From contig CANDVA010000006.1 in assembly GCA_947389015.1 (NCBI GenBank), positions 1 through 64,000 on the forward strand: 64,000 nucleotides of DNA, read 5' to 3'. Position 1 is the first letter of the stretch. The number at the start of each line of letters is the position of its first letter. The notes beneath the pieces were generated by a model that worked only from the letters and a program-made list of their open reading frames with translations, did no database searches and was not told the origin of the DNA. The position numbers were made by a program, and so were the translations under genes. The stretch is from an uncultured Clostridia bacterium (GTDB taxonomy: Bacteria; Bacillota; Clostridia; Oscillospirales; Ruminococcaceae). This document shows positions 52,460 to 60,099 of this stretch, one piece after another.

Positions 52460-53632
52460 TTAGAGGTATTTTTTCAGCGCCTCAGCTTTGTCGGTCCTCT
52501 CCCACGTGACGTTCAGATCCTCGCGTCCCATATGACCGTAGGCCGCTGTTTGTTTATACTGCGGCTTTCTGAGATCAAGGGTATTTATGATAGCGGACGG
52601 ACGGAGGTCGAATTCCTTGATTACCGCGTCGGCGATCTTGTCGTCGGAAATCTTTCCCGTGCCGAATGTGTCGACCATTACGGAAACGGGCTTTGCAACG
52701 CCGATAGCGTAAGCGAGCTGTATCTCAGCCTTGTCGGCGAGACCCGCCGCTACGATGTTCTTGGCAACATAACGCGCCATATAAGCTGCCGAGCGGTCTA
52801 CCTTGGTCGGATCCTTGCCCGAGAACGCGCCGCCGCCGTGACGTGAATAACCGCCATATGTATCAACGATGATCTTACGTCCCGTAAGACCGCTGTCGCC
52901 CATAGGACCGCCGACAACAAATCTGCCCGTCGGGTTGACGAAATACTTGGTGTTTTCGTCGAGAAGCTCCGCGGGAACGGTAGTTTTGATGACCTTTTCG
53001 ATAACGTCCGCGCGTATCTGTGCGAGGGTAGCCTCAGCCTTGTGCTGAGAAGAGACGACAACCGTATCAACACGCACGGGCTTGCCGCCGTCGTATTCAA
53101 CGGTTACCTGCGTCTTTCCGTCGGGGAGCAGATAGGGCAGCGTGCCGTTCTTGCGCACCTCGGTGAGCTTTTTCGCGAGCTTATGCGCAAGGCTTATCGG
53201 CATCGGCATAAGCTCGGGGGTCTCGTTGCAGGCAAATCCGAACATCATACCCTGATCACCGGCGCCAACATCATTCTCGTTTTGCTCGCGTCCTTCGAGA
53301 GAGTTGTTTACGCCCATCGCGATATCGGGAGACTGCTTGTCGAGAATTGTGTAGACCGCGCAAGTATCGGCATCAAAGCCGTATTCGCTTGAGGTATAGC
53401 CGATCTCGCGGACAGTCTTGCGAACTATCGACGGAATATCTATATTGGCGGTAGTGGTAATTTCTCCCATCACCGTTACCATACCCGTGGTGGTCGTGGT
53501 CTCGCAGGCAACTCTGCCCATAGGATCCTGCGCCAGAATAGCGTCCAACACCGCATCGGAGATATTGTCGCAGATTTTGTCGGGGTGACCCTCGGTAACG
53601 CTTTCCGACGTAAATAATTTCTTTGTGTTCAT
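52460..53632 (-). CDS. metK: S-adenosylmethionine synthetase
   Basis: A 390-residue enzyme making SAM from methionine and ATP. Signatures: [20 protein letters not shown] (start), [12 protein letters not shown], and [18 protein letters not shown]. Normal length. AAAGGATGG precedes the ATG. It is expressed under a SAM-I riboswitch with terminator (53667-53857), so high SAM should shut it down. Single gene. Confidence 0.98.
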
Positions 53633-53700: not shown

Positions 53701-53718
53701 GTAAAATATCCGTTCACT

Positions 53719-53857
53719 CCTTATCTTTCGGTGAAGTAAACTTCCCGCAGGATGTAGCACCGTTCTTTTCGTTCGTCGGCGACGACCGTCAAGTGGTTGC
53801 CGGGCTTCATAGGGACCAGTCCCCCGCCTTTCGGCTTGAAGCCTCTCTTGATAAGGC
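53719..53857 (-). promoter_or_regulatory. SAM-I (S-box) riboswitch
   Basis: The aptamer reads CCTTATCAAGAGAGGCTTC at its 5' end, then GGGGGACTGGTCCC, ATGAAGCCCGGCAACC, GGTGC and closes with GAAAGATAAGG, pairing with the first bases as P1. These are the invariant S-box segments. Rising SAM should stabilise P1, free the terminator at 53667 and stop metK transcription. Confidence 0.95.
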
Positions 53858-55842: not shown

Positions 55843-55871
55843 TTGACATTCGGAAACAAATATGCTATAAT
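55843..55871 (+). promoter_or_regulatory. Promoter of the amino-acid ABC importer
   Basis: TTGACA (55843-55848), 17 bases, TATAAT (55866-55871); leader about 45 bases. Confidence 0.88.
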
Positions 55872-55920: not shown

Positions 55921-56730
55921 ATGACTATGAAAAAATTAAGCACCGCGTTCATTGCGGCTTGCCTCAGTATTACAATGCTGTCGGGCTGCAGCGGCGTTCC
56001 CGCGAATAGCGTGTTCTCGGCGGACGATCTGCCCGGAAAATCTATCGGCGTTCAGAAAGGCACAACCGGCGATGATTTAGCTAAAGGTTACGAAGAGTCG
56101 CCGGAAGAGGGCAAAGAAGCAGCTAAAGTTGAACGTTTTGATAAAGGCGCAGATGCTGTAAACGCTCTCAAGCAAGGAAAAATTGATTGTGTTATAATTG
56201 ATAACGAGCCCGCAAAGGTTTTCGTTTCACAAAACGACGACTTGCAGATACTTGAAGGCAGTTTTGAGCCCGAGGACTATGCTATTGCGGTCAAAAAAGG
56301 CAGCGAGCTGACCGATAAGATCAACGCGGTAATAAAGGAGCTTACAGAGGACGGTACTATAGGCAAAATCCTCGGTAACTACATAGGCGATAATCAGGGC
56401 AGTTATCAGTACACCTCTCCCGAGAACGTTGATCGCAGCAACGGCAAGCTCGTAATGGCGACCAATGCGGAGTTCCCACCCTACGAATCCTATGACGGCA
56501 ACAAGATAGTCGGAATAGATCCCGACATCTTTCAGGCCATATGTGACAAGCTCGGCTACGAGGCGGTTATCGAGGATATGCAGTTTAACGCCATTATCGC
56601 TTCCATTGAAGCGGGAAAAGCGGATATAGGAATGGCGGGTATGACCGTCGATCCCGACAGACTTAAAAATGTGGACTTCACCGAAAGCTACGCTCAGGGG
56701 CTGCAGGTCATTATAACACGCAAGAAGTAA
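55921..56730 (+). CDS. Circularly permuted amino-acid substrate-binding lipoprotein
   Basis: A 269-residue lipoprotein (signal peptide, lipobox TMLSGC with Cys23). It is a family 3 solute-binding protein, but its halves are in reversed order. Residues about 32-160 carry what is normally the C-terminal half (GKSIGVQKGTTGDDLAKG, DCVIIDNEPAKVF, YAIAVKKGSE, DGTIGKILGNYIGD). A linker then leads to about 172-269, which is the normal N-terminal half (GKLVMATNAEFPPYESYDG, KIVGIDPDIFQAI, AGMTVDPDRLKNVDFTESYA). All core segments are present, so it should bind a polar amino acid outside the membrane. AAAGGA precedes the ATG at 55921. Confidence 0.92.
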   Translation: MTMKKLSTAFIAACLSITMLSGCSGVPANSVFSADDLPGKSIGVQKGTTGDDLAKGYEESPEEGKEAAKVERFDKGADAVNALKQGKIDCVIIDNEPAKVFVSQNDDLQILEGSFEPEDYAIAVKKGSELTDKINAVIKELTEDGTIGKILGNYIGDNQGSYQYTSPENVDRSNGKLVMATNAEFPPYESYDGNKIVGIDPDIFQAICDKLGYEAVIEDMQFNAIIASIEAGKADIGMAGMTVDPDRLKNVDFTESYAQGLQVIITRKK

Positions 56731-56740
56731 TTAAGCCGAA

Positions 56741-56767
56741 AAGCGCGGCAATGCACCGCGCTTTTTT
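56741..56767 (+). terminator. Intercistronic terminator after the binding protein
   Basis: An eight-base stem (56741-56748 with 56756-56763), a seven-base loop and a six-T run. It probably lets only part of transcription reach the permease and ATPase, giving an excess of binding protein. Confidence 0.8.
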
Positions 56768-56781
56768 ATAGGAGAAAACAT

Positions 56782-58252: not shown

Positions 58253-60076
58253 CTATTTTACAGCTACGTCATACTTCCGCATCCATGCTTCGGTTTGCAG
58301 GAAATATGCGTATATCTGCGGTACGGTCATAAGCTGACCGTACCAGTTTTTGGCAAAGCTTGCGCCGTCCGTATCAAGCATTCGTCGAAGCTCGTCGGCG
58401 TTGACTATCTCCGTCAGACGGCAGTCTCCGCTGTCGAGAAGCGCTCTCAGTTTTCCGCTTAAAAGCGCCATATAATCGGGATTGTGGGTCTTGGGATACG
58501 GGCTCTTTTTGCGCCAGAGAACGTCCTCGGGTAGAACCCCCTCCATTGCGTAGCGCACCAAGCCCTTTTCGCGCCCGCGGTAGTTCTTGAACGCCGCGGG
58601 GATATTGTATGCGTATTCCACCAGACGGTAGTCGCAGAACGGTACGCGGACTTCAAGTCCGTGAGCCATGGACATACGGTCTTTTCTGTCAAGCAGCGTC
58701 GCCATAAAATACTCAAGATTAAGCACGAACATCTCGCGCATACGGGTATCGTCGTCGTTCTCACCGTCAAGGTAGTCCACGTCCTCAAGACAGCGGTCGT
58801 ATGCTTTGCGGACGAACGCCTCCGCCTCCTTGCCGGACATCGGATTTTTCATCAGCGAGCCTCGCTCGGGAACGCTCGTCGCCCACGGGAAACCGTTGTA
58901 GTGCAGCACCTCGGGTCTGTGGTACCACGGATAGCCGCCGAATATCTCATCGGCGCATTCACCTGATAAAGCGACGGGAAAACCCGCATTTTTGATCTCG
59001 CGGCAGAACAGCCAGAGCGAGCTGTCGACGTCTGCCATTCCCGGGAGGTCGCGCGCGTATACCGCGTCGTTCAGAGCCTCGGCGAGTGCGGGAGTGTCCA
59101 GCACAACATTAGCATGCTCCGAGCCGATAAACTTTGCCATTTTCTCGACATAAGGAGCGTCCTCATCGGGCTGAAACGCGCTTGCCCTGAAGTTCTCACG
59201 GTTGTGCGCGTAATCTATCGAGAACGTGTGCAGACGCTCGCCGCGCTTGGAAAACTCCGTCGCAGCTATCGCCGAGATGACCGAGCTGTCAAGTCCTCCC
59301 GACAGAAACGTACAGAGCGGAACGTCGCTGACGAGCTGACGTTTCACCGCGTCGAAGATAAGCTCACGCACATGATTCGCAGTCTCGGTGAAGTTTTCGT
59401 TATGCGGGGCGGCGGTCAATCTCCAGTAGCGTTTAACGGTAAGTCCTTTGCGCGAGAAATCGGCGCAGTGCGCCGCGGGCAGGTCACGGATATCGCGGAA
59501 CACGCCGTTGCCGACTATCCGAGCGGGACCCACCAGCATTATCTGCGCTGCGCCCTCCTCGGTGATCACCGGCTTGACCTCGGGATGCTTTAACAGCGCC
59601 TTGATCTCGCTCGCGAATACCAATCCGTTCTCCGTCTCCGCATAGAACAGCGGCTTGACGCCGATCCTGTCGCGTGCGAGGAACAAGGTCTGTTCGCTCT
59701 TGTTCCAGACGGCGAACGCAAATATTCCGTTGAACATATCGAGACACTTCTCACCGTACTCGACATACGCTTTCAGTACGACCTCGGTGTCGGAGTGCCC
59801 GAGAAATCGGTAACCGCGCTTTTCGAGCCCATCTCGTATCTCCGCGGTGTTGTACAGCTCGCCGTTGTAGACGAGCGTACAGTCGCCGAAAGTCATGGGT
59901 TGAAAGCCGTTTTCGGGGTCGATGACGATAAGTCGCCTGTGCGCGAGACAGACGTGCTCGTGCTCGAAAAGCCCGTCCGCATCGGGTCCGCGGGGCGTGA
60001 GCGCACGGCTCATTTCACGTATTATTTCGTTGTTGATCTGTGTTCTGAAATTGATCTCTCCTGCAATTCCGCACAT
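58253..60076 (-). CDS. asnB: Asparagine synthetase (glutamine-hydrolysing)
   Basis: A 607-residue enzyme making asparagine from aspartate, ATP and glutamine. The start is at 60076 so that, after Met removal, Cys2 of MCGIAGEI becomes the glutaminase nucleophile; GGAG lies eight bases upstream. RGPDADG and LVYNGELYN are glutaminase motifs. The synthetase PP-loop is TFLSGGLDSSVISA (about 261-274). It has its own promoter and shares a terminator with the amino-acid importer. Confidence 0.96.
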   Translation of the reverse strand: MCGIAGEINFRTQINNEIIREMSRALTPRGPDADGLFEHEHVCLAHRRLIVIDPENGFQPMTFGDCTLVYNGELYNTAEIRDGLEKRGYRFLGHSDTEVVLKAYVEYGEKCLDMFNGIFAFAVWNKSEQTLFLARDRIGVKPLFYAETENGLVFASEIKALLKHPEVKPVITEEGAAQIMLVGPARIVGNGVFRDIRDLPAAHCADFSRKGLTVKRYWRLTAAPHNENFTETANHVRELIFDAVKRQLVSDVPLCTFLSGGLDSSVISAIAATEFSKRGERLHTFSIDYAHNRENFRASAFQPDEDAPYVEKMAKFIGSEHANVVLDTPALAEALNDAVYARDLPGMADVDSSLWLFCREIKNAGFPVALSGECADEIFGGYPWYHRPEVLHYNGFPWATSVPERGSLMKNPMSGKEAEAFVRKAYDRCLEDVDYLDGENDDDTRMREMFVLNLEYFMATLLDRKDRMSMAHGLEVRVPFCDYRLVEYAYNIPAAFKNYRGREKGLVRYAMEGVLPEDVLWRKKSPYPKTHNPDYMALLSGKLRALLDSGDCRLTEIVNADELRRMLDTDGASFAKNWYGQLMTVPQIYAYFLQTEAWMRKYDVAVK

Positions 60077-60099
60077 AATTATCGCTCCTTTCATGCTGC

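Follow-up and report, generated by a model that had tools for sequence, protein, structure and literature searches.

The window, the whole stretch of 64,000 nucleotides that was analysed, comes from a gut bacterium and contains a gene for a family 3 amino-acid-binding lipoprotein exactly where the original prediction had placed it. Together with the two following genes, for a permease of the polar amino-acid type and a GlnQ-like ATPase, it is predicted to form one operon of an amino-acid ABC importer (Table 1). The adjacent TIGR01726-type permease places the system among the polar amino-acid ABC importers. The receptor gene is preceded by a consensus promoter. Five promoter-like sites were seen in the region against 4.8 expected from shuffled sequences, so that only the perfect match at all 12 positions argues for a promoter. 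The gap between the receptor and permease genes holds an RNA hairpin followed by a T run; folding was equally good in 2 of 200 shuffles, and the hairpin is not among the sites listed by a terminator scan. An element of this kind could raise the level of receptor mRNA above that of permease mRNA.

Table 1. Features of the importer operon and modules of its receptor.
Feature	Position	Strand	Basis and remarks
Consensus promoter, TTGACA-17-TATAAT	55843..55871	+	12/12 match with a TG in front of the second hexamer; ~50 nt upstream of the receptor gene
Receptor gene, family 3 amino-acid-binding lipoprotein, 269 aa, order C1-C2-N	55921..56730	+	ORF, Pfam, profiles, AlphaFold2 model
Signal peptide with lipobox LSGC; Cys23 predicted lipid anchor	55921..55989	+	Motif
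Module C1, residues 29–107; small lobe; canonically second, here first	56005..56241	+	Profile positions 107 onward
Module C2, residues 108–157; second hinge crossing and last helices, the canonical C-terminal end	56242..56391	+	AncQR and profile alignment
Linker, residues 158–174; old C-terminus to old N-terminus	56392..56442	+	C2-to-N junction
Module N, residues 175–268; canonically first, here last	56443..56724	+	PF00497 positions 1–92
RNA hairpin, then T run, in the receptor-permease gap	56736..56772	+	-16.6 kcal/mol, z -2.91
Permease, polar amino-acid type, 241 aa	56782..57507	+	PF00528 81.6 bits; TIGR01726 73.5 bits (cut-off 42.2)
ATPase, GlnQ-like, 241 aa	57494..58219	+	PF00005 140.5 bits; best NCBIfam match GlnQ, 310.8 bits (below the cut-off of 379)

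An asparagine synthase gene (58253–60094, reverse strand) converges on the operon. This neighbour gives a hint, and a slight one, that the substrate of the importer could be an amide amino acid. On the other side of the operon a SAM riboswitch (53718–53857, reverse strand) lies upstream of an S-adenosylmethionine synthetase gene (52460–53632).

The receptor gene codes for a circular permutation of a family 3 (PF00497) binding lipoprotein: the protein is complete, but its two halves have changed places. PF00497 (SBP_bac_3) matches the protein in two stretches with 109 bits (gathering score 26.4), and positions 1–92 of its 132 positions correspond to residues 177–268. Likewise, residues 9–104 of AncQR (PDB entry 4zv1) align with residues 174–268 and residues 107–232 with residues 29–156, so that the two matches combined cover nearly the whole AncQR chain in reversed order. 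We aligned the protein with a profile of 45 canonical relatives and E. coli GlnH, whole and then with its halves exchanged, as the original prediction had proposed. The native protein gave two pieces out of order (profile positions 107–228 with 139.1 bits, then 7–104 with 144.2 bits) and the exchanged version a single piece (9–228, 296.4 bits). GlnH as a control behaved in the opposite way, with one piece of 252.7 bits for the native chain and two of 110.8 and 127.4 bits after swapping, and the best score among the 16 of 20 shuffled window proteins listed was 2.8 bits. The swapped order is therefore borne out by PF00497, AncQR and the canonical profile alike. As both halves are present in reversed order, the protein is a permuted variant and no ordinary member of PF00497. 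It scores below the thresholds of the GlnH equivalog family NF007029 (103.6 versus 303 bits) and of the lysine/arginine/ornithine-binding subfamily TIGR01096 (119.8 versus 256.35 bits; both NCBIfam). At an E-value of 0.001 the protein matched two Pfam families only, PF00497 and PF10613, which are both of type II; PF10613 weakly matches the N half, with 25.4 bits under a cut-off of 30.

Part of the original assignment has to be revised. While the order of the halves was given correctly, the halves cannot be equated with lobes: the leading half (residues ~28–160) comprises the small lobe and, at its end, a stretch of ~45 residues that is part of the large lobe.

A frameshift or a misassembly that removed a normal N-terminal half could give the impression of a permuted gene. 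The window genome is in 49 contigs and many of the relatives described below come from metagenome assemblies, which would leave room for such an error. However, a search of up to 900 nucleotides upstream of the gene did not reveal any trace of a normal N-terminal half, which the original prediction would have counted against itself, and a missing upstream half was judged unlikely. Permuted single frames span the junction in the single-contig genomes G224, G591, G614 and G715, permuted frames of a second order are present in the type strains Sporobacter termitidis DSM 10068 and [Clostridium] viride DSM 6836, and a permuted frame was also seen in the record of Ruminococcus sp. zg-924. Moreover, 21 relatives with the order of the window protein align over its length. 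The absence of such a trace and the permutants in single-contig genomes and type strains make an artefact very unlikely, with a probability close to nil.

The lipobox motif predicts lipidation and thereby a lipid-anchored receptor of an ABC importer. Cys23 is nearly invariant among 22 aligned proteins of the same order (the window protein and the 21 relatives). The break in the chain lies near the equivalent of GlnBP residue 97. In GlnBP the small domain comprises residues 90–180 and the large domain residues 5–84 and 186–224 (PMC13229503, PMC7400645). Since the break falls inside the small domain, an N-terminal lipid anchor would be located on the small lobe and not on the usual large one. 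Permutation thus apparently moves the membrane anchor to the other lobe of the protein, which supports the original prediction on this point; docking on the permease may change as well, as that prediction suggested.

AlphaFold2 folded the window protein as a single chain with a pLDDT of 88.4 and a pTM of 0.82. The model contains the elements expected for the type II fold (cluster F) in permuted order, with the break beyond the hinge crossings. Confidence in the model and coverage of nearly the whole canonical chain support the earlier claim of a complete fold. Foldseek and VIA-align searches with the model returned sequential matches only, at low identity; such sequential searches ignore a permuted superposition. 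The model of the second-order protein from Sporobacter termitidis (pLDDT 88.0, pTM 0.78) aligned with canonical receptors over 157–216 columns in Foldseek (r.m.s.d. of at most 2.7 for 30 of the 50 matches listed and up to 8.2 for the rest), and the length suggests that the aligned part consists of N and C1. In principle, the short linker would also allow the halves of one chain to pair with those of another, giving a domain-swapped dimer. We consider such a dimer highly unlikely, because single chains of two different orders were folded by AlphaFold2 and because a linker of ~13 residues need span only the distance between the old termini.

In GlnBP the large domain contributes ligand contacts (PMC7400645). 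The large-domain ligand residues Ala67, Gly68, Thr70 and Arg75 of GlnBP correspond to Ala239, Gly240, Thr242 and Arg247 of the window protein, all within module N, and Asp157 corresponds to Asp94. Asp10, Lys115 and His156, the latter two of which we take to be ligand contacts of the small domain, are replaced by Asn182, Gln45 and Ile93, so that the ligand need not be that of GlnBP. This alignment shows part of the predicted binding site to be conserved and, together with the family assignment, predicts an amino-acid receptor. The gene is under purifying selection, with dN of 0.116 at dS of 1.33 against relative L005 and dN of 0.166 at dS of 1.44 against L006.

A scan of GTDB contigs with the window protein yielded 378 relatives, of which 80 were kept. 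In the genus of the window a match with an E-value below 1e-40 was present in 16 of 36 other genomes, so that presence is patchy. Relatives were retrieved with the window protein and with a profile of the C2-to-N junction, and the resulting set is biased accordingly. Profiles for the modules N, C1 and C2 and for the permease (P) were run on the fetched loci and identified 206 distinct open reading frames with an N module. The order of the window protein, C1-C2-N, was found in 86 of them, which answers the earlier call for homologues of the same order. A second order, C2-N-C1, was seen in 47 frames, a third order in three and the canonical order N-C1-C2 in 45; in addition there were ten C1-C2-N-P fusions, one canonical fusion, eight partial or odd frames, and permuted arrays fused to a permease with two (four cases), three (one case) or four units (one case). 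The third order is cut inside C1 and occurs outside the class of the window (L190, L212 and L213 in genomes G889, G1012 and G1052), in single lipoprotein frames of 274–321 residues that adjoin a permease. The permuted (CN)2-4-permease arrays (L099 and L105 in G012, L106 in G038, L107 in G041, L211 in G922) comprise 735–1224 residues in one frame. Canonical tandem fusions, (NC)2-3-permease, were found in genus g109 of the window's taxonomic order (L231–L236; five with two units and one with three); they comprise 751–1000 residues including the permease and are followed by an ATPase gene. A C2-N-C1-P fusion is encoded in one frame of 532 residues (L237 in G176, positions 238–1833).

Two further variants were observed. 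At L036 (3980–5500) a permuted receptor-permease fusion is split into two adjoining frames, C1 and then C2-N-P. In the subgroup L041–L050 the break is displaced downstream by about ten residues relative to the window protein and the last module is followed by a tail of 18–20 residues; the start of the small lobe has thus moved to the C-terminus.

The junction profile detected permuted frames, either alone or fused to a permease, in at least 60 of the 395 genomes sampled from the taxonomic order; in a sample of the phylum, at a stricter threshold, it found them in 9 of 398 genomes together with one tandem. In the class, at least 59 of the 393 genomes sampled, among them that of the window, carry this topological variant, which routine domain annotation hides. 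These counts are a by-eye tally of rows covering the junction, with module annotation for part of the rows; the window genome is in every sample and some genomes are in more than one.

The genes around the receptor were similar irrespective of its order. Among relatives with at least 2000 nucleotides of downstream sequence (109 further frames had too little), both permease and ATPase follow in 35 of 42 cases of the window order, 25 of 26 of the second order and 4 of 4 of the canonical order; the remaining seven of the 42 had no permease or no ATPase in the searched stretch. The median gap from the stop codon to the permease was 57 nucleotides for the window order, 61 for the second, 55 for the canonical and 46 for the third order (frames without a detected permease were assigned a default of 300). 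A simple motif test detected a signal peptide with lipobox in 77 of 86 proteins of the window order, 47 of 47 of the second, 3 of 3 of the third and 44 of 45 of the canonical order, and in 7 of 10 fused proteins. The linker between C2 and N has a median length of 13 residues (range 9–18) in the 86 proteins of the window order.

Break sites were read from the canonical profile aligned to GlnH. In the window order the C-terminal piece ends at positions 102–107 in 74 of the 86 proteins, at 112–119 in 11 and at 81 in one, in the second order at 173–178 in all 47 and in the third at 134–136 in all three. The starts of the N-terminal pieces are concordant except for outliers at 68, 99 and 133 (first order), 165, 168 and 182 (second) and 117 (third), which we read as ends of local alignments. 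This gives four break sites, near residues 97, 108, 128 and 170 of GlnBP (~94–100, 105–112, 127–129 and 166–173), in a numbering that is derived from the alignment and starts at what we take to be the mature N-terminus of GlnBP. The break end lies within the small domain in 135 of 136 permuted proteins, whereas both termini of the canonical chain lie in the large domain. The probability that four random sites all fall into the small lobe is ~0.41 to the fourth power, or 0.03, which is suggestive only in view of the search bias: a break within the large lobe would reduce the score against the window protein and the junction profile, and such permutants may have been missed. The restriction of the break sites to the small lobe may thus in part reflect the search. 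As the breaks lie in the small lobe beyond the crossings, both hinge crossings remain; the idea of a single remaining crossing in both main permutations was dropped after the break sites had been mapped.

The order of the modules has changed repeatedly within the family, at four break sites. In a tree of 149 receptor units, all arranged in a common order, the window protein belongs to a clade of 52 rows (SH-aLRT 95) and permuted rows stand among canonical ones in several other places; many inner branches are weak (61 of 146 are open). The third order forms one clade of two rows. A separate permease tree with 126 rows shows the same mixing of orders: L041 and L048, which have the order of the window, group with the canonical L078 (support 100), and L160, of the second order, with canonical rows of its own genus (support 97). 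A combined receptor and permease tree of 58 rows requires 12 changes of order, with permutation and reversion indistinguishable in such counts, against a minimum of two. Its well-supported branches alone force at least seven changes for the canonical, four for the first and five for the second order, and none of 200 bootstrap trees had any order as one clade. AU tests, which covered these three orders, rejected holding each of them together (p = 1.5e-68 for the first, 3.3e-6 for the second and 1.0e-47 for the canonical order; 1.9e-5 for the second without four divergent rows).

These results bear on the possibility that a single ancient permutation was inherited or transferred, with the canonical relatives as a separate branch. 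The large clade of the window order and the single clade of the third order would be expected in that case. The AU tests reject it under the model used, albeit with 58 rows that were hand-picked from the larger tree and favour mixture. Together with the mixed permease tree and with break sites and linkers that differ between groups, this makes a single origin hardly credible.

A close view of one change is offered by genus g219, which holds both the second order (L160 in G597) and the canonical order (L200, L208 and L210). L160 and L210 are 89% identical in the N module and 68% identical in the C modules; they group with a support of 89 in the tree of the N half and, together with L200, with a support of 69 in the tree of the C half. 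At the junction of L160, sequences that resemble the former C-terminal end and the former mature N-terminus flank a short stretch. L041 and L048 join the canonical L078 in both half trees as well (81 and 97). In total, the half trees clearly agree in two of six pairs of permuted and canonical proteins and are unresolved or different in the other four. A fusion of two genes was judged unlikely; the agreement for L160–L210 and L041/L048–L078, which the other four pairs do not share, is partial evidence.

The half trees leave room for another scenario, in which permutation gave rise to a few genes on one occasion and sequence of a canonical gene of the same genome later replaced them one half at a time, giving only the impression of repeated events. 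The four pairs without clear agreement would be compatible with it, as would the observation that the nearest canonical rows of the two halves often differ, and trees cannot separate permutation from reversion or conversion. On the other hand, both halves would have to be overwritten from the native lineage beside a native permease, the break sites differ between groups, and in G597, the clearest case, the junction profile found only one match at an E-value of 1e-30. Recombination between paralogues is thus unlikely to account for the pattern.

Based on these results, the receptor of this amino-acid ABC importer is very probably a circular permutant of a family 3 (type II) binding protein, for which we propose the following structure and origin. 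The permuted chain would begin in the small lobe, immediately after it has crossed the hinge for the first time, and a linker of ~13 residues would connect the former C-terminus to the former N-terminus. The receptor would adopt a two-lobed fold that closes around an amino acid and passes it on to the permease. Binding and transport presumably proceed as usual, with the lipid anchor located on the small lobe. A single permease gene implies a symmetric membrane dimer, and a move of the anchor to the other lobe may therefore cost little.

The best-supported mechanism for the permutation would start with an in-frame tandem duplication of the receptor. In a second step the outer parts would be lost, leaving the signal peptide and lipobox before the new first module. 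The permuted frame lies inside every canonical tandem. The original prediction had likewise assumed a duplication followed by loss at both ends, and the tandem arrays in canonical and permuted register and the linker of L160 fit this idea. Among the relatives examined, no intermediate of the window's own lineage was found, nor was an array in canonical register seen in the close lineage, and for this reason we infer the route from the other genomes. The arrays in both registers are plausible intermediates. The C2-to-N linkers of single permutants and permuted arrays are similar (group medians 10–13.5) and the spacing to the permease is unchanged across orders, which we count in favour of the tandem route. 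Scars of the lost halves were found neither within up to 900 nucleotides upstream of permuted genes nor in the gap to the permease (best E-value 1.0).

To a broader reading we give an even chance. The receptor family may be a hot spot of natural circular permutation: in this class of bacteria the receptor of one type of operon would have been re-cut repeatedly at a minimum of four small-lobe sites via in-frame tandem arrays, always with the anchor, or a fused permease, on the small lobe. As either receptor lobe may face either subunit of a symmetric permease dimer, the position of the anchor would be free to drift or to be selected, for instance for faster closing or better docking. Canonical and permuted versions in one genus, in like operons and with a recurrent change, amount to a natural experiment. 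It addresses how new chain orders arise, as arrays in both registers survive as possible intermediates, and how much depends on the choice of the lobe by which a binding protein is anchored and docked to the ABC permease.

Canonical PF00497 proteins such as GlnH/GlnBP, T. maritima ArgBP and AncQR have the same full-length modules as the window protein and share with it the binding residues of the large domain and the operon with one permease and one ATPase. They differ in the order of the halves and in the location of the termini and the lipid anchor, which is the large lobe in the canonical proteins and the small lobe in the window protein. In the GlnPQ-type SBD1-SBD2 tandem (PDB entry 6h30) the second half of SBD1 and the first half of SBD2 match residues 34–260 of the window protein in one stretch. 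GlnPQ-type fusions, however, contain two complete canonical domains, whereas the window protein is one permuted domain on a chain of its own. Among the best 60 of 469 matches in a PDB profile search only this tandem spans the junction; the other 59 start at profile position 55 or later. A possible parallel exists in ionotropic glutamate receptors, in which the membrane part follows the S1 half of the ligand-binding domain and the S2 half comes after the channel. The S1 half presumably ends approximately where the order of the window protein breaks. In the fused permuted relatives the permease directly follows the N half, which is the same half as S1, whereas the half equivalent to S2 stands in front.

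A literature search, with subscription papers and preprints outside its scope, did not bring up any naturally occurring permutation among family 3 receptors or type II receptors in general. Natural circular permutations usually have one description per family. The natural precedent that we found among binding proteins is Tp0684 (MglB-2) from T. pallidum, a lipid-anchored ABC binding protein which is classified as 'type Ic' (PMC4990184). According to the same paper it binds its ligand, glucose, and changes shape, has a type I fold with a fourth hinge crossing and permuted strands in the N lobe, is reported in one topology and has relatives in Gram-positive gut bacteria. MglB-2 resembles the window protein as a naturally permuted, lipid-anchored ABC receptor and differs from it as a type I sugar receptor with its break elsewhere; the window protein does not belong to this type I sugar-binding family. 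The surprising part of the present results is the recurrence of family 3 permutants at several sites.
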